Of a stretch of 64,000 bases of DNA, positions 25,692 through 32,426 are shown one piece after another. A program made the position numbers and the translations under genes. The stretch comes from Stieleria bergensis. Its GTDB lineage: Bacteria; Planctomycetota; Planctomycetia; Pirellulales; Pirellulaceae. The notes under the pieces are model-generated. The model was not told where the DNA came from. It made no database searches and worked only from the letters and a program-made list of their open reading frames with translations. How positions within the stretch are numbered: position 1 is the first letter of the stretch; every line of letters starts with the position of its first letter. The stretch covers positions 6,997,566 to 7,061,565 of the forward strand of contig CP036272.1 in the NCBI GenBank assembly GCA_007745635.1, read 5' to 3'.

Positions 25692-26024
25692 TCAAACGTG
25701 CGACGATTTCTTGCCGCCCATCAAGTGATAGTGCAAATGCGGAACCTCTTGACCACCGGCTTCGCCACAGTTGATGACGACGTTGTAACCGTCATCCAAA
25801 CCTTCCGCGGCAGCAATCTTGGCTAACGCCACCATGCAGTGCCCGACAATCAACGCATCGTCGTCGGTTAAATCGGCCAGCGATGGAATCTCCTTTTTCG
25901 GGATCACCAGCACGTGCACAGGAGCTTGGGGGGCGATGTCTCGAAACGCTAAACACACATCGTCTTCAAACACGATGTCTGCTGGGATTTCGCGATCGAT
26001 GATCTTCTTAAAAATGGACGACAT
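25692..26024 (-). CDS. HIT family nucleotide hydrolase (HINT-like)
   Basis: From ATG 26024 the protein has 110 residues; a GTG four codons earlier is in frame but less likely. SSIFKKIIDREIPADIVFEDD is the typical start. The histidine triad H96-L-H98-Y-H100 lies in VPHLHYHLMGG at the end, as in HINT/HinT purine nucleoside phosphoramidases. No signal peptide is seen, so it is cytoplasmic. Its stop codon abuts that of the DUF1501 gene with no base between (TGA then TCA on the plus strand). Confidence 0.93.
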   Translation of the reverse strand: MSSIFKKIIDREIPADIVFEDDVCLAFRDIAPQAPVHVLVIPKKEIPSLADLTDDDALIVGHCMVALAKIAAAEGLDDGYNVVINCGEAGGQEVPHLHYHLMGGKKSSHV

Positions 26025-26097
26025 AGCAACGGTCACCGTAAAACGTTCTCTAGCTGGCTAAAAGATCTTGCGATTGCGATCAGGCGATCGCCTACAC

Positions 26098-26208: not shown

Positions 26209-29200
26209 TTACTTCGTTGACTTCTTCAACCAGTTTCGAACCAGACTTGCCTCGGGAAGGTTGGTTTGCCGAAACTTGTTCACCGTGCCTGCGGGTTCAT
26301 CGTATAACAACATGGTGGCGTCTGACAGTTCGGTTGCCACAGGCGAATCCAATAGCAGGGAAGAATCCGAAGCGTTCATGCGACCGACGATTCGCAGTTC
26401 ACAGTCATGTTGCGACTGCCTGGAAAGCCATCGAGACATGGTTTCCAACCCACCACAAACGAGCAGGCAATAAACATGCGCTGGCGGGCCATCTTTCAGC
26501 AGTTCGCGCAGTGCCTGTCCGCCGCTTAGTCCGGCCGGAGCGTCCAGCGAGAACTCGAACGAGTCCTCGTTACGAAGGTCTCGAAAACGATCCAACGGGT
26601 CCACCACGACCACGATCGGATCCACGTTCTCGGCTTCGTCACCACGCTCCTTAACGATTTGAACCAATTCACCCATTTGCTGAACCGCGTCACGTGGCTT
26701 GACAACCTGAGCTTTGATTCCAGCCTCTTCAAACCAAGACTCCATCGACAACTGATCGCTGCTACGGTTACCGTCAAAATAATACAACTCAGTCGCTGGG
26801 TTTTCTTTCATCATGCCAGCAAGCGTGGCTGATAAGACTCCGGCGCGAGCCTGGGGGGGCGCGATCAGAATGGCGTTTCGCCCCGCGTTCCGAGTGAAGG
26901 TGACGGACACCGGAGGCCCAATCTCCACCGCTTCGCCCAGCAAACCGCTCAGCGAATCGGCTTCCTCGTTCGGTGCATCCACCACGGCCTGAGCGAGCTC
27001 TGCGGACCAGTTGCATGGTCGATTGCCTTGAAACACAACCGGTGGCGGCAGGTCTTTGGCAAACTCTTGATCGCGATCGGCGATGGATTGCAGCATGGCA
27101 ACGTGATCATCATGATCCAGCCAAGCAACCTGGAACGGTTGATTGCCCTCAATCAAGCCACTGGCATCATTGTAGATCGCTTCGCCGGGACGAGACAACA
27201 ACCGTGCAGCGGTGTTGTCATCGGACAAGATCAACGCGGCATCGGATTCACCACACTGCAAGGCAACACGCACTGCCATCTGGCCCAGCGTTGCTCGCGG
27301 CAATGAAAATGCCCCGGCCAAGGACTGAGTGCTCAGGACAACGTGAACGCCAAACGATCGCCCTTGACGAACCAAGCGGTCCAGCAACATCGCACAGTCA
27401 GCAGCCACACGATCATCGCGAATGAACAGTTCTTGGAATTCATCAATCACCAACATGATTCGCGGCAACGAATGACCACTGACCTTTCGATAGTGAGCCA
27501 GTTCCTGCGTGGAATACTGGCGGAACAACTCGCCGCGATGCTGTAATTCGGCATCTAAACGCTGCAAGACGCTGCGTCCAAACTCGCGGACGCTTTCGAT
27601 CCCAATCACGCGTGCATGTGGCAGTTGACCGTCGGCGTAGACCTTGAACTCCACCCCTTTCTTGAAGTCCAACAGGTAGAACTGCAGTTGGTCAGGAGTG
27701 TAATCGTGAGCAGCGGAGGAAATCACCGAGTGCAGCAGCGTGCTTTTCCCTGACCCCGTTTTCCCTGCGATCAGCACATGCTGTTTGACGCCTTCGCCTA
27801 ACTGCATCGCCAACTTTCGCTGTCCACCTTGGCTACCGATCACGACCTGGATGCCGTGATCCGTACTGCCATCACCACCTGGCTGTTGAAGCAGCGAGTG
27901 CAGCGGAACCTCCACGCGAGCGGCAGCGTTGGCCGCATCACCAATTTGCTGGACCAGTTGGTCACGTAACGCTAGCGGAACATTGGGCGCTGGATCAAAC
28001 GGCAGATCTTCCAGCCCATCAACCTGCAGCGTCCAATCACCATCGGCATTGACATTGAACTGCAACAATCGATCATCGACCGGCAAAGGCATCTCTGACA
28101 CCCAGGGTTCATTGTCCTTGCACAGCAGCACCACAAAAACGCCGCAGCGTTGTCCACTTTCAATCAAGGCCTTCAGATGCTTGTAACCGCCGCGAGTCAG
28201 CCCTTCAGGCATGCCCACCGCAGCGATCACTTGGTAGGGCTCCGCCATCGAACCGGCCAGGATGTTGTAGTCTTCGACGCGTTGAAAACGTTCTCTCAAA
28301 CTAGACTGCAAGACGTCCTCAGCGTGCTGCGCGATTTCTCCCAGTCGCGATTCGATCTGACTTTCGGTTGTCCAGACGCGATGACCAACCAGAGCAGCGT
28401 CATGATCGGCCAAGGCCATGAACGAGGTGAAGTGCTGGCCTCGGCCGATGGGGTCAATCAATGTCAAATTCGTTCGACCACCAGCAGCACCGCTCAAGGA
28501 ACGCCAAAGCATCTGATGCACCATCGCAAGTGCCGCATCCCATTGCTGTGGAGCAGCAGTAACGACCATTCCACTATGCAGGCGACGATGCATTGCAATG
28601 GGCAATGAATGCGGCATCTCATCGTCTTGGAACATTCCGGGAACGGTGCTCGACTGCCGCTGGGCATCGGCGACTTGGTCATCATCCCCCTCAGATTCGG
28701 AAGACGCATTTAGCAGGGCAGGGGAGACCAGTCGATTGAGATACTTGTCGATCTGTAGCGTTCCAAGCGGCAAATAGTCGAGCTGCTTGGAGCCCTGAGC
28801 CCCTTTTTGGACCACATCCTCCCAATCAGGGAAACGCAACTGAGTTTGCTTTCGAGCACGCTCAATCCGCTGAAAGCCATTTTCCACGCCCACTCGCAAT
28901 CGCTTGGTCACACGAGCAAGTTCGGTACGACGACACGCCTCTGCATCACGTGCTTGATCGCGCAACTCAACATCGGTTGCTGAGAGCGTGGACGTGATCT
29001 CATTAGCGACCGCTTCAGCGAGTTTGAGCATGATGCCGTTATTGGCTTGATAACTCTCTTGAAAAGCCTCATCCAAACCATCGCGTTTGATGCTCAGCGA
29101 TTCATACTCGCGTGACTCCTGATCAGCCAAACTTTTTTCCAACGAAGCAATCTCATGGATCTTGGATTTCTCGGCCTCGGCCAGTTCTTGATCTCGTTCA

Positions 29201-30171
29201 CGAAGCAGGGTCGCCGCGTCACTCTTGGCTTTTTCAGTGGCAATCTTTTGCGTCGCTTCGGTGACTTCTTTGGCGGCGTTGCCTAAACACTCGAACTCGG
29301 CATACAGTTTTTTGGTTTGACGGCGCAATGGAATCAGCATGCACACATAGCTGACGAAGCCCAGCACGGCGACAACCACAACACTGATCACCATCACCAT
29401 CCAAACCGACGGCGGTTGCAGGAGCCAAACGCCAGCGGCAACGGTGGTCGACAGGATCACAAAAATCAGCGGCAGCCAGAAGGAATCGACAATGCCCGCC
29501 ATCGAGTCCGATCGCAAATGCGATAACAGATCCTGGCAGCGATCCGCGAGCTCTCGCAAGCGTTTCAAGCCATCGTCGATTGTTTTCGGAACGGGCCCCC
29601 CAAACTCGGTCTTCGATGTCTCAATCGGTTCGACGACCGGCAACTGGTCCAGACGCCGCAATGAGATCTCACGGGCCTGTTGGATGTCTTCGCCAATCGG
29701 AGCCATCGCGGCTTTGATTTTGCCAAACTCTTGCTCGCGCGTCCGCGCTGGTTGATGCTTGACGGACTCATGTTTCTGGTTGGCCGTTGCACAGCGAACG
29801 CGATATTGCTGTTCGATCTCGGCAGTGCCATCGGCCAAACGCTTGCGGTACTTCGCAGCCAGGCGGCGAATGTCTTCGCGCACCTGTAGCATTGTCTCTT
29901 CATATTCCCAGAAGATCTTTTCCTCGGCCTGATCCCATTGGCCCAGGGTGCCACGGCGCTGCTGGCGACACTGCTCGGTGACTTGTCGTCGATGCTCTTG
30001 CTGCGTTTTTTCTTCGAGCTGCTTTTGAACGATGTGGCCGGAGACCATGTCCATCCGCTGCTGCTGGCAACGCTGAAACCGCGCCGCAAGAGACTCCATC
30101 AGCCAGCGTTGGCGCTGTGGCGAATGCAACCCAACAGGTGCAACACTGGAGTCTTTCATGATGGTACTCAT
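26209..30171 (-). CDS. FtsK/SpoIIIE-type ATPase, EccC-like architecture
   Basis: From ATG 30171 the protein has 1320 residues; a GTG at 30243 would add 24 unlikely residues. Residues 1-220 are strongly helical and charged, probably coiled-coil. Two membrane helices follow (about 231-250 and 255-282), then a second coiled-coil to about 430. The C-terminal half looks like three tandem P-loop modules: a degenerate one (about 525-730), a complete FtsK domain with Walker A GKTGSGKST (803-811), Walker B LVIDE (907-911) and STQSL, and a degenerate third (about 1090-1310, PPQARAGVLS and IVVVVDPLDRF). Two helices followed by three ATPase domains is the plan of type VII secretion EccC/EssC. The gene two steps upstream is ilvB, and a WXG100-like gene lies between. 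A DNA-translocation role cannot be excluded. Confidence 0.85.
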   Translation of the reverse strand: MSTIMKDSSVAPVGLHSPQRQRWLMESLAARFQRCQQQRMDMVSGHIVQKQLEEKTQQEHRRQVTEQCRQQRRGTLGQWDQAEEKIFWEYEETMLQVREDIRRLAAKYRKRLADGTAEIEQQYRVRCATANQKHESVKHQPARTREQEFGKIKAAMAPIGEDIQQAREISLRRLDQLPVVEPIETSKTEFGGPVPKTIDDGLKRLRELADRCQDLLSHLRSDSMAGIVDSFWLPLIFVILSTTVAAGVWLLQPPSVWMVMVISVVVVAVLGFVSYVCMLIPLRRQTKKLYAEFECLGNAAKEVTEATQKIATEKAKSDAATLLRERDQELAEAEKSKIHEIASLEKSLADQESREYESLSIKRDGLDEAFQESYQANNGIMLKLAEAVANEITSTLSATDVELRDQARDAEACRRTELARVTKRLRVGVENGFQRIERARKQTQLRFPDWEDVVQKGAQGSKQLDYLPLGTLQIDKYLNRLVSPALLNASSESEGDDDQVADAQRQSSTVPGMFQDDEMPHSLPIAMHRRLHSGMVVTAAPQQWDAALAMVHQMLWRSLSGAAGGRTNLTLIDPIGRGQHFTSFMALADHDAALVGHRVWTTESQIESRLGEIAQHAEDVLQSSLRERFQRVEDYNILAGSMAEPYQVIAAVGMPEGLTRGGYKHLKALIESGQRCGVFVVLLCKDNEPWVSEMPLPVDDRLLQFNVNADGDWTLQVDGLEDLPFDPAPNVPLALRDQLVQQIGDAANAAARVEVPLHSLLQQPGGDGSTDHGIQVVIGSQGGQRKLAMQLGEGVKQHVLIAGKTGSGKSTLLHSVISSAAHDYTPDQLQFYLLDFKKGVEFKVYADGQLPHARVIGIESVREFGRSVLQRLDAELQHRGELFRQYSTQELAHYRKVSGHSLPRIMLVIDEFQELFIRDDRVAADCAMLLDRLVRQGRSFGVHVVLSTQSLAGAFSLPRATLGQMAVRVALQCGESDAALILSDDNTAARLLSRPGEAIYNDASGLIEGNQPFQVAWLDHDDHVAMLQSIADRDQEFAKDLPPPVVFQGNRPCNWSAELAQAVVDAPNEEADSLSGLLGEAVEIGPPVSVTFTRNAGRNAILIAPPQARAGVLSATLAGMMKENPATELYYFDGNRSSDQLSMESWFEEAGIKAQVVKPRDAVQQMGELVQIVKERGDEAENVDPIVVVVDPLDRFRDLRNEDSFEFSLDAPAGLSGGQALRELLKDGPPAHVYCLLVCGGLETMSRWLSRQSQHDCELRIVGRMNASDSSLLLDSPVATELSDATMLLYDEPAGTVNKFRQTNLPEASLVRNWLKKSTK

Positions 30172-30375
30172 TAAACATTGCTGTGATGCTGCGCGCTGGC
30201 TCCGGACAACCCATGGAACCACACACTGGGAGCTCAAACCCACTCAGGATCAGCAGAAGAGAAGCGAACCGAAAAGGATGAAAAAGAGCAACCCTCGGCG
30301 CAGCAGCAATGCGTCATCGTGCTGCCGACGGCCACCGCAGCTAGTATAACTAATAACGAGCAGGGTGATCAGCAA

Positions 30376-30642
30376 TCAAAAGATTTGTCGGCGGCTCGTC
30401 TCTTCATCTGACAATTCCCGCTGAGCCTTGGCGATCTCAGTGGCAAAGTGATTGAGATTGGCGGCGAGACGACTAAGGCTGGGAGCGACGCCTGAGAGAT
30501 GAGCCGTCTCGAACTGACGGCTCCGATCGTCTTGCCAATGCTGCTTGGTGCCTTGCCACTGACGCGCAAAATCCTGGAACTCGCGCGCCAGACGCTGTTG
30601 AGCGTCTCGTAGGACGGCGACATTCAGTGGCTCCAACGGCAT
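30376..30642 (-). CDS. WXG100-like small helical protein
   Basis: The 88-residue protein has no signal peptide and reads as two long helices with a turn near 30-38. The turn contains W29-Q-G31 and, seven residues on, W36-Q-D38. Counted from Trp36, Asp38, Arg40 and Phe44 match the W-x-G-x-A-x-x-x-F spacing of ESAT-6/WXG100 proteins, with Asp in place of Gly. The size is also right (about 100). Its ATG lies 5 bp after the ilvB stop, and the EccC-like ATPase gene starts 204 bp downstream. I infer a substrate or partner of that ATPase. A generic coiled-coil protein is the alternative. Confidence 0.6.
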   Translation of the reverse strand: MPLEPLNVAVLRDAQQRLAREFQDFARQWQGTKQHWQDDRSRQFETAHLSGVAPSLSRLAANLNHFATEIAKAQRELSDEETSRRQIF

Positions 30643-30647
30643 TGATC

Positions 30648-32426
30648 TTATTCCAAAATCATGTCATCAACCGTATGACCACCCGGGATCATCGGCAAGA
30701 CGTGCTCTTGATAAGGCACTTCAACATCCAACACATAAGGACCTTTGTGCTCAATCATTTCACGGATGGCACCTTCTAGGTCACCCTTCTTGCGAACCGT
30801 TGATGCACCGCAACCATAACCCTTGGCGATCTGCACAAAGTTAGGGTAGCGATCATCCGCGTACGCAAAACGCTCGGCCTGACTGTTGCCCTTGGCTTCG
30901 TTGTGGCTGATTGGCCCCAGGTACGTGTGGGCGCGATTGCGATCCATGAAACGATCTTCCCACTGAACCACCATCCCAAGGTGCTGGTTGTTCAACAGGA
31001 ATACCTTCACGGGCAACTCTTCGCAGAAACAGGTCGCGAGCTCCTGCACATTCATCTGGAAGCTTCCGTCACCGTCGATGTCGATGACCAACGCACCTGG
31101 CAAAGCAGCTTGGATCCCCATCGCTGCTGGCAAACCAAAGCCCATCGTGCCCAAGCCACTGCTGGAGTGCCAAGTCCGTGGACGACGGAACTTGAAGAAC
31201 TGGGCCGTCCACATCTGGTGCTGGCCAACGCCAACGGTGATTTGTGGATCCATTTCAGCAGTGATGTCGCTAAGCGTCTTAATCGCGTGTTGCTGCAGGA
31301 TGCCATCAAACCCATTGTCGTAAGTCAATGGATACTTTGTTTTCAATTCCGCACAGTGCTTCCGCCACGGATCGATGCCAGTCTTAGTCACGGTCTTGTT
31401 CAGTTCCGATAAGACCTGCTTGACGTCGCCGCGAACCGGGATGTGAGCTTCCTTGTTCTTGTTCAGCTCCGATGCATCAATGTCCACGTGGATGATCTTG
31501 GCATCTTTGGCGAAGGCTTCCACCTTGCCTGTGACGCGGTCATCGAAACGGACGCCCAAACCGATCAACAAATCGCAATCGCGAACGGCATAGTTGGCAT
31601 ACGCTGCACCGTGCATGCCCAACCAATCCAACGAGAACTCGTTTTCGGGTGGCACTGCACCGATACCCATCAGCGTTGTCACGGTGGGAATACCGGTGTT
31701 ACTGATGAACTCGCGAAGCTCTTCGCTGGCGTTGCCAAGAACGATCCCGCCACCAGCGTAAATCACAGGGCGACGGGCCAGCTTGATGGCAGCGGTGATC
31801 TGACGAATGGTCTCGGCGGGTACAGCCGGTGGAGCTGCTTCATAGCCGGGCAAGTCCATCGGTGGATCCAAGGGAACTTCGGCAACGTCACTCAGCTGCA
31901 CGTCTTTTGGCAAGTCAACCAAAACAGGGCCAGGACGACCACTGCTGGCGATGTGGAAAGCTTCTTTCAAGACACGTGGCAGGTCTTCAATCTTTGTCAC
32001 CAAGTAATGGTGCTTGGTGATGCCACGACAAACTTCCACCATCGGTGTTTCTTGGAACGCGTCGGATCCGATCGCACGAGTCGGAACCTGCGCGGTGATC
32101 GCTACCATGGGGACGCTGTCGAGTTTGGCATCGGCAATCGCGGTCACCAAGTTGGTGGCGCCGGGACCACTGGTCGCCATCACGACGCCGACGCGGCCGG
32201 TCGCGCGAGAGTAGCCCTGTGCTGCAAACGCACCGCCCTGCTCGTGACGAGGTAAAATCGTTCGAATCGAGTCACCGTATCGAGTCAACGCTTGGTGCAT
32301 TGGCATACTGCAACCACCAGGATAGGCAAACAAGACATCGACACCGTGATCTACCAAAGATTGGACAACAATGTCGGCTCCGGTCATCATGCGGTGGTCA
32401 GTTTTTGCAGCTTCAGCAGTACTCAT
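30648..32426 (-). CDS. ilvB: Acetolactate synthase large subunit
   Basis: The 592-residue protein catalyses the thiamine-diphosphate-dependent first step of branched-chain amino-acid synthesis (two pyruvate to acetolactate, or pyruvate plus 2-oxobutanoate). Glu62 ([19 protein letters not shown]) is the cofactor-activating glutamate. [19 protein letters not shown], the FAD-binding middle ([13 protein letters not shown]) and the ThDP/Mg block G452[13 protein letters not shown] complete the family pattern. No regulatory ilvN subunit lies next to it; the downstream gene is the WXG100-like one. The 355-bp leader contains two hairpins. Confidence 0.95.

Follow-up and report, generated by a model that had tools for sequence, protein, structure and literature searches.

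Type VII secretion is usually ascribed to Actinomycetota and Bacillota, and its ATPases, EccC and EssC, have two transmembrane segments (TMs). Related forms have been described elsewhere. Zhang 2012 reported solo WXG domains in planctomycetes, accompanied by a YueA-like ATPase in which the middle domain alone is active, and footnote 6 of a table in that paper treats these forms as apparently mobile versions of the type VII secretion system, T7SS (PMC3482391). Bell 2024 reported EssC-like ATPases of defence loci which have no TMs, an N-terminal coiled coil and, again, only the middle domain active (PMC11090510). According to the passages of that paper on these proteins, Type III-A CoCoNuT defence systems contain such ATPases together with two WXG100 proteins, and a coiled coil is fused to a nuclease-like domain inside the defence operons; because the ATPases are without TMs, the WXG100 proteins are considered likely to be secreted by a different mechanism. 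A single active ATPase domain is therefore already known from both papers. In Helicobacter pylori the pair HP0062/HP0066 has been described (PMC3397514; PMC4978471, section 17), to which the present genes are compared through one protein only.

The locus studied here lies in a 64-kb stretch of planctomycete DNA (the window) and consists of an ATPase gene and, directly upstream on the same minus strand, the gene of an 88-residue protein, c1. The two are half of a four-component set, of which the other half, c2 and c3, is elsewhere on the chromosome. Like the forms of Zhang 2012, the set occurs in Planctomycetes, has three ATPase domains with the middle one alone active, and has a WXG partner; it differs in being four-part and in being co-retained when scattered, and the passages of that paper on the solo forms make no mention of c1, c2 or the W-x-D motif (PMC3482391). 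Compared with CoCoNuT, as far as the relevant part of PMC11090510 describes it, the planctomycete form shows two TM-like segments by hydropathy, and c2 of this genome carries only a 43-aa low-complexity tail beyond the matched region rather than a nuclease fusion. One of the two small WXG100-like proteins of CoCoNuT is without WxG, and c1 and c3 here are both without the G. Thus the general kind is already in print, whereas among the matches listed the four-part membrane-anchored set apparently is not; its scattering with co-retention, c2 and the TM anchoring were likewise not found among them.

With T7SSa and T7SSb the set shares the three-domain ATPase architecture and a WXG100 partner (c3), but the ATPase differs from their EccC/EssC in that only the middle domain is active, in its long helical N-terminus and in its separate branch. 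The T7SSb core protein EssB/YukC had no match in the genome of the window at E <= 0.1, while 4 of 14 control genomes, including B. subtilis, were matched, one of them over the cut-off. The T7SSa core protein EccB gave no match in this genome, nor in the control genomes.

The ATPase and its domains

An ORF check of the window placed both the ATPase gene and c1 as first annotated (Table 1). The true start of the ATPase is probably M25, since matches of close homologues start at residues 24-29.

Table 1. Features of the locus in window coordinates.
Feature	Position	Strand	Basis
ilvB	30648-32426	-	
c1, 88-aa WXG100-like hairpin protein with W-x-D turn	30376..30642	-	ORF check, conservation, profile match, model
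W36-Q-D38 motif of c1	30529..30537	-	W36 and D38 invariant, 25/25 and 23/23
EccC/EssC-like membrane ATPase	26209..30243	-	1344-aa ORF from GTG; probable true start ~30171 (M25)
N-terminal charged helical (coiled-coil-like) region, residues ~30-250	29494..30156	-	composition only
Two hydrophobic (TM-like) segments, residues 251-269 and 283-301	29341..29493	-	Kyte-Doolittle
First ATPase domain, degenerate, without P-loop, residues ~545-780	27904..28611	-	AF2 model, Foldseek, P-loop pattern scan
Middle FtsK_SpoIIIE domain, intact, residues 808-976	27316..27822	-	Pfam, E 1.3e-26
Third ATPase domain, degenerate, without P-loop, residues ~1085-1340	26224..26991	-	AF2 model, Foldseek, P-loop pattern scan

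The C-terminal 800 residues fold into three EccC/EssC-type ATPase domains, and the AF2 model matches EccC over 882 columns in Foldseek. The sole intact domain is the middle one, which is also the only FtsK_SpoIIIE domain found by Pfam; it carries the Walker A sequence GKTGSGKS at 827 and the Walker B region IDEFQELF at 933. In 104 of 105 distinct family ATPases the P-loop is exactly GKTGSGKS and no second P-loop pattern occurs; the remaining one is without the exact motif and has one P-loop-pattern match somewhere in its sequence. DEFQE is found in 103 of the 105. Two apparently split ATPases (G025 and G034) were rejected as variants: both halves reach contig ends, and the splits are therefore assembly breaks.

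Exactly two TM-like segments were counted in 36 of 39 family ATPases (first 450 aa) and in 65 of 74 ATPases of named loci, all calls being Kyte-Doolittle hydropathy. They are flanked on either side by sequence of coiled-coil-like composition. The first-pass annotation had thus read one intact FtsK domain and two membrane helices correctly, the latter as judged by hydropathy. It had also held the long coiled-coil N-terminus to be unlike known EccC proteins, a feature which is already described for EssC-like relatives in the part of PMC11090510 concerned with them.

The top eight Foldseek matches of the ATPase are all EccC or EssC (3e-24 to 1.5e-16), with FtsK at best at 1.3e-11. NCBIfam profiles gave 99.5 bits for EccCa (cut-off 509.15), 96.6 for EssC (778.4) and 85.5 for EccCb (346.55), against 18.6 for FtsK (1566). 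The equivalog cut-offs of EccC/EssC are not reached; nonetheless the architecture is common to both, and the EccC-like architecture proposed at first is upheld by these searches.

c1 and its distant partners

The predicted structure of c1 alone is a hairpin with its turn at W36-D38; all 25 aligned members share W36, D38 and F44, and the c1 profile aligns in register with S. aureus EsxA (3.9e-5). The form of a WXG100 protein is present, that is about 100 residues, a helical hairpin and a W motif at the turn, while W-x-G proper is absent, the window protein having W-Q-D. The WXG-like protein that the first-pass annotation saw here therefore stands as regards its predicted fold, but not as regards its motif. 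Among curated models, TIGR03930 gave 14.3 bits, below its cut-off of 44.85, and PF06013 did not match c1 of the window, matching 3 of 25 members with a best E of 0.0099. Of 87 matches to c1, 82 carry W-x-D, as do 64 of 65 matches to c3 (the match sets of different samples overlap). The expected conservation of the pair was also seen, c1 being kept beside the ATPase and present in 49 of 100 family genomes, all of them among the 58 whose ATPase match exceeds 200 bits.

c3 (89 aa) lies ~1.9 Mb from the ATPase locus in this genome and passes PF06013 with 40.1 bits (cut-off 27.3), the only WXG100 protein here above the Pfam cut-off. The best solved relative of the c3 profile is HP0062 (1.7e-11). 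A second candidate, at G000:C1:3268059 (19.4 bits), was rejected as a chance match to a low-complexity, Gln-rich coiled-coil ORF. c2 (~190 aa) lies ~2.7 Mb from the ATPase locus, appears coiled-coil-like by eye and bears an extra C-terminal part in a few relatives; a Pfam search of it returned nothing convincing, and hhalign of c2 against c3 gave a probability of 27%. A TPR gene upstream of c3 was considered as a fifth component, but it has relatives in just three fetched loci besides this genome, so that it would be confined to a lineage at most. For the 398-aa gene that follows c2 in this genome, the other fetched ORFs gave no relative.

Distribution and linkage of the four genes

Among 246 sampled genomes of the phylum, the ATPase was found in 31, c3 in 30, c2 in 28 and c1 in 30, and no genome had a small gene without the ATPase (Fisher p <= 8e-34, a value that ignores relatedness). 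The set extends over at least 12 planctomycete families; families missing from the VIA list were not counted as evidence. Since 215 of the 246 genomes have no ATPase match at E <= 1e-20, the set is not a core function; at >=90% completeness and <=5% contamination the ATPase occurs in 18 of 134. The commonest order is c3, c2, c1, ATPase, seen in 39 of 57 named loci (80 less 23 with under 2.6 kb upstream) and in 17 of 28 in the linkage tabulation of the phylum sample. In four genomes of one contig each (G000, which is that of the window, G123, G204 and G250) the genes are separated and all four are kept, and in G235 the ATPase and c1-c2 are ~450 kb apart on one contig. The linkage groups treat contig breaks as separation, which concerns the fragmented drafts G175, G222 and G237 and the assemblies G186, G292 and G313 of ~40-150 contigs.

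Possible roles of the set

These counts bear directly on the first proposal for the locus, a self-sufficient, pared-down two-gene type VII secretion locus behind ilvB. Here c1 neighbours the ATPase, and 11 of the 57 named loci have the adjacent pair without c2 or c3 nearby. However, this genome also has c2 and c3, and the four-gene arrangement is the commonest. The c1 ORF starts 5 nt after ilvB, but no ilvB orthologue was found near the set in the other 122 stretches (ORFs of at least 200 aa), where the sole match is weak (46.8 bits, in L120) and distant from c1. ilvB is thus incidental and was rejected as a partner, and a two-gene locus is very improbable. It is less credible still, indeed hardly conceivable, that the ATPase is an FtsK paralogue for DNA segregation. 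It shares the FtsK_SpoIIIE domain, and midpoint rooting sets its branch of the middle-domain tree on the FtsK side. In that tree (one FastTree run of one domain with few outgroups, omitting one Mycolicibacterium EccC domain and the third EccC domains as short matches) the family nevertheless forms its own branch, apart from the EccC and FtsK clades alike (FtsK clade support 0.98), so that the clustering with chromosomal FtsK that would have undone the first reading was not seen, rooting aside. At E <= 0.001 just two FtsK_SpoIIIE proteins are present in the genome, the locus ATPase, which has three domains rather than the single motor domain expected of an FtsK, and a separate FtsK at G000:C1:6007178 (214 bits); therefore c2 and c3 are without another such ATPase partner. 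The paralogue was rejected on the profile scores, the FtsK elsewhere and the EccC-type architecture, the tree showing a separate branch only.

It is possible, though on balance unlikely, that the set is an intracellular nucleic-acid or stress/defence machine, a chromosomally domesticated pump of the FtsK/HerA type, with W-x-D and coiled-coil proteins as adaptors, comparable to Ter, TerY-P and CoCoNuT cassettes, which would secrete nothing. A conjugative plasmid of Rhodococcus encodes a full-length relative, accompanied by small and coiled-coil-like partner genes, next to TerD genes; the CoCoNuT cassettes outlined above combine similar components; PADLOC models gave 79.7 (SspH), 70.3 (mad8) and 32.3 bits (HerA) on the middle domain; and the absence of EssB and other WXG proteins from the searches of this genome, like the midpoint rooting, fits such a machine. 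However, the hydropathy of the Rhodococcus ATPase passes the threshold of 1.6 only once and marginally (1.62 at residue 17), where planctomycete forms have two clear ones, the EccCa and EssC scores exceed that of SspH (from a different library), and the CoCoNuT WXG100 proteins are themselves considered likely secreted in the passages cited. Unlike the CoCoNuT context, inspection by eye of the ORFs listed in the surroundings of the window locus, c3 and c2 revealed no Ter or restriction genes. Co-retention after unlinking, coiled-coil-like composition around the TM-like segments and the lack of known substrates would also suit a membrane-anchored scaffold or envelope factor organising the inner membrane or division site and moving no substrate. 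This seems improbable: the near-universal Walker A and DEFQE motifs would argue for an active motor, and the patchy occurrence argues against a core function.

Our best guess is a membrane-anchored motor handling W-x-D proteins. With about even confidence, we propose that this gene pair makes up one half of a four-component, type VII-like machine conserved in planctomycetes, whose motor moves W-x-D proteins or their cargo into or across the inner membrane. The EccC/EssC matches far above FtsK, the recurrent pair of TM-like segments, and the small proteins (c3 by PF06013 and HP0062, c1 by EsxA and its hairpin model) support a type VII-like machine; co-occurrence in the 246 genomes and retention when unlinked support four components. 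By analogy, the ATPase would form a hexamer and bind the W-x-D proteins; c1 and c3 would probably pair like EsxA/EsxB, c2 may serve as adaptor or cargo carrier, and the motor would push the W-x-D proteins, or cargo riding along. More tentatively, this may be a genuine protein-export system of bacteria of the Gram-negative type, built on type VII parts, in which an anchored, single-active-domain cousin of EccC/EssC would act on c1 and c3 as substrates or targeting factors, with c2 as a carrier that has cargo domains in some lineages, the set being kept complete though scattered.

The four-gene, membrane-anchored planctomycete relative offers a small set for probing the EccC/WXG core without its usual partners, and lets one ask whether diderm, LPS-type cells have WXG100-type export. 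The orphan pair HP0062/HP0066 of H. pylori gains a broader family and two possible further components, c1 and c2.

Reading frames of the window and kinship of the ATPase

The first-pass annotation proposed a minimal type VII-like secretion locus of ilvB, a WXG-like protein and an EccC-like ATPase. The ATPase and the small protein, c1, are real reading frames at the positions it gave them (see the table). The locus, with a GC content of about 0.55 against 0.54-0.59 over 20-40 kb, is not distinguished by base composition. Next after the ATPase, here as in two genomes of the same genus, comes a small gene (cluster c18) whose product is presumably HIT-like.

Positions of the genes discussed; the window is C1:6997566-7061565 on the contig coordinates used for c2 and c3
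Gene	Position	Strand	Remark
ATPase	window 26209-30243	minus	one FtsK_SpoIIIE domain (profile match)
c1, 88-aa WXG100-like protein	window 30376-30642	minus	weak WXG100 match only (TIGR03930, E 0.035)
HIT-like gene	window 25692-26036	minus	
c3, WXG100 protein	C1:5137358-5137618		E 5.9e-37, profile search
c2, coiled-coil-like protein	C1:4294730-4295230		E 4.2e-34, profile search
TPR-like gene	L104:6403-7314		303 aa, own genome
Short ATPase copy	L079:7032-8582	minus	516 aa, genome G016
c2 homologue, ~190-aa C-terminal addition	L178:4872-5963		Pfam Imm33-like domain above cut-off
c2 homologue, ~190-aa C-terminal addition	L163:1118-2230		
c2 homologue, ~190-aa C-terminal addition	L181:7271-8332		

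Against NCBIfam models the ATPase scored 99.5 bits with EccCa, 96.6 with EssC, 85.5 with EccCb and 18.6 with FtsK, each below the model's own cut-off. PADLOC models SspH (79.7 bits), mad8 (70.3) and HerA also match its middle domain. Structure comparison of the AF2 model, which covers residues 545-1344 (pLDDT 82; 80 residues below 50), gave a match to T. curvata EccC at 3e-24, spanning 882 alignment columns. All of the first eight structure matches were EccC/EssC, and FtsK appeared from 1.3e-11. In a tree of the middle domain alone, the sequences from planctomycetes group with a Rhodococcus plasmid protein in one clade (0.90), separate from the EccC clade (0.96) and the FtsK/TcpA/Dnd clade (0.98). 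Taken together, the structure matches and the separate clade indicate that the ATPase has type VII architecture but is a branch of its own. Under midpoint rooting, its clade is placed on the FtsK side.

Among 105 distinct ATPases, 104 carry an exact GKTGSGKS and no further P-loop pattern. Ahead of the ATPase domains, 36 of 39 family ATPases and 65 of 74 among the best 80 named loci have exactly two TM-like segments; the remainder have one, three or, in one case, none.

A recurrent four-gene set

An ATPase match above 200 bits was found in 58 of 100 family genomes, including all 49 that contain c1. Open reading frames were called and clustered in 40 stretches (8 to 20 kb each; 38 genomes), plus that of the window; 38 of the 40 and the window hold a member of the ATPase cluster. 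The order c3 - c2 - c1 - ATPase recurs in the fetched stretches, and the clade closest to the window has c1 - ATPase only. W36, D38 and F44 are invariant in the alignment of all 25 c1 cluster members; c3 was aligned from all 19 members and c2 from 11 of 21. No ilvB orthologue was detected in the other 122 stretches (reading frames of at least 200 aa), the single weak match (46.8 bits) being in L120. Upstream of the c1 region in close relatives (L063-L068, L074, L076) lies a protein of about 515 aa, HEAT-like by eye only (cluster c5; nine members at eight loci). The short ATPase copy in G016 lies downstream of the full one and aligns with its C-terminal part only; short matches in G034 and G025 were rejected as second copies, being at contig ends.

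Across 246 genomes of the phylum (E <= 1e-20 for the ATPase, <= 1e-4 for the small genes), the ATPase was found in 31, from 12 families, c3 in 30, c2 in 28 and c1 in 30. None of the 246 has a small gene without the ATPase; ATPase genomes lack c3 in G316, c2 in G206, G212 and G316, and c1 in G206. All four genes occur in 28 genomes, together in 17 and split somehow in 11. The splits in G175, G222 and G237 are possibly due to contig ends; G000 (the window's genome), G123, G204 and G250 are single-contig genomes. Within family f3, the four genes are jointly absent from five listed genomes of genus g71. Among the best 80 named loci, 57 had 2.6 kb or more of upstream sequence; all three partners are present in 39 of these, c1 alone in 11 and no partner in 7. 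Labels are mostly planctomycete; a few MAGs carry others, one being labelled Verrucomicrobiaceae, another Chloroflexi and some only 'bacterium'.

Dispersed parts and a plasmid relative

In the window's genome, c3 is the one WXG100 protein above cut-off, and the one other FtsK_SpoIIIE protein (E <= 0.001) is FtsK itself. Available portions of PMC6952346 and PMC10632474 describe the FtsK of Planctopirus limnophila as single and apparently essential. A weak WXG100 match at C1:3268059-3268214, inside a large Gln-rich coiled-coil reading frame with a long NPQGQ repeat run, was taken as chance. Directly upstream of c3 lies the TPR-like gene, with relatives (E 2e-46 or better) near c3 or c2 in L070, L071 and L077; it is possibly a lineage-specific fifth part.

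On a conjugative plasmid of Rhodococcus sp. AH-ZY2 (L191), a full-length ATPase relative adjoins TerD genes and has three neighbour genes (E-values from an unfiltered five-protein search). The 87-aa neighbour has QWKD and scores with the c3 (8e-12) and c1 (1.7e-4) profiles; because of this, the assignment of the 73-aa neighbour (LWRD; c1 profile 2.2e-4) as putatively c1-like rests on motif and order. The 314-aa neighbour is weakly c2-like in its N-terminal part (E 1.7e-5), and its extra C-terminal part, which has no Pfam match, is ParB-like by eye only. This ATPase has no clear TM pair; its one hydrophobic window, at residue 17, is marginal (1.62). Non-repetitive tails of about 190 aa occur in 3 of 71 planctomycete c2 sequences, one of the three with an Imm33-like domain, and a fourth tail (138 aa) is low-complexity. 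These additions thus hint at c2 as a carrier.

Relation to described systems

PMC3482391 already lists planctomycetes with the lineages that have a solo WXG together with a YueA-like ATPase active in its middle domain. A close CoCoNuT cassette is described in part of PMC11090510; it is without TMs, whereas most planctomycete ATPases have two TM-like segments, and its WXG100 proteins are thought likely to be secreted, though by a different mechanism. Excerpts of PMC3397514 report WRD in HP0062, those of PMC11217815 cover T7SS of Bacillota and Actinomycetota, and PMC3935865 contains none of six terms looked for, planctomycet and Gram-negative among them. No description of the four-part set was found in searches of the open-licence literature.

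The first-pass annotation made a real observation and named the right kin. The planctomycete set is a variant of an already described kind, and its parts list is better defined here than in print as found. Export is the best guess for its function, with about an even chance of being right.
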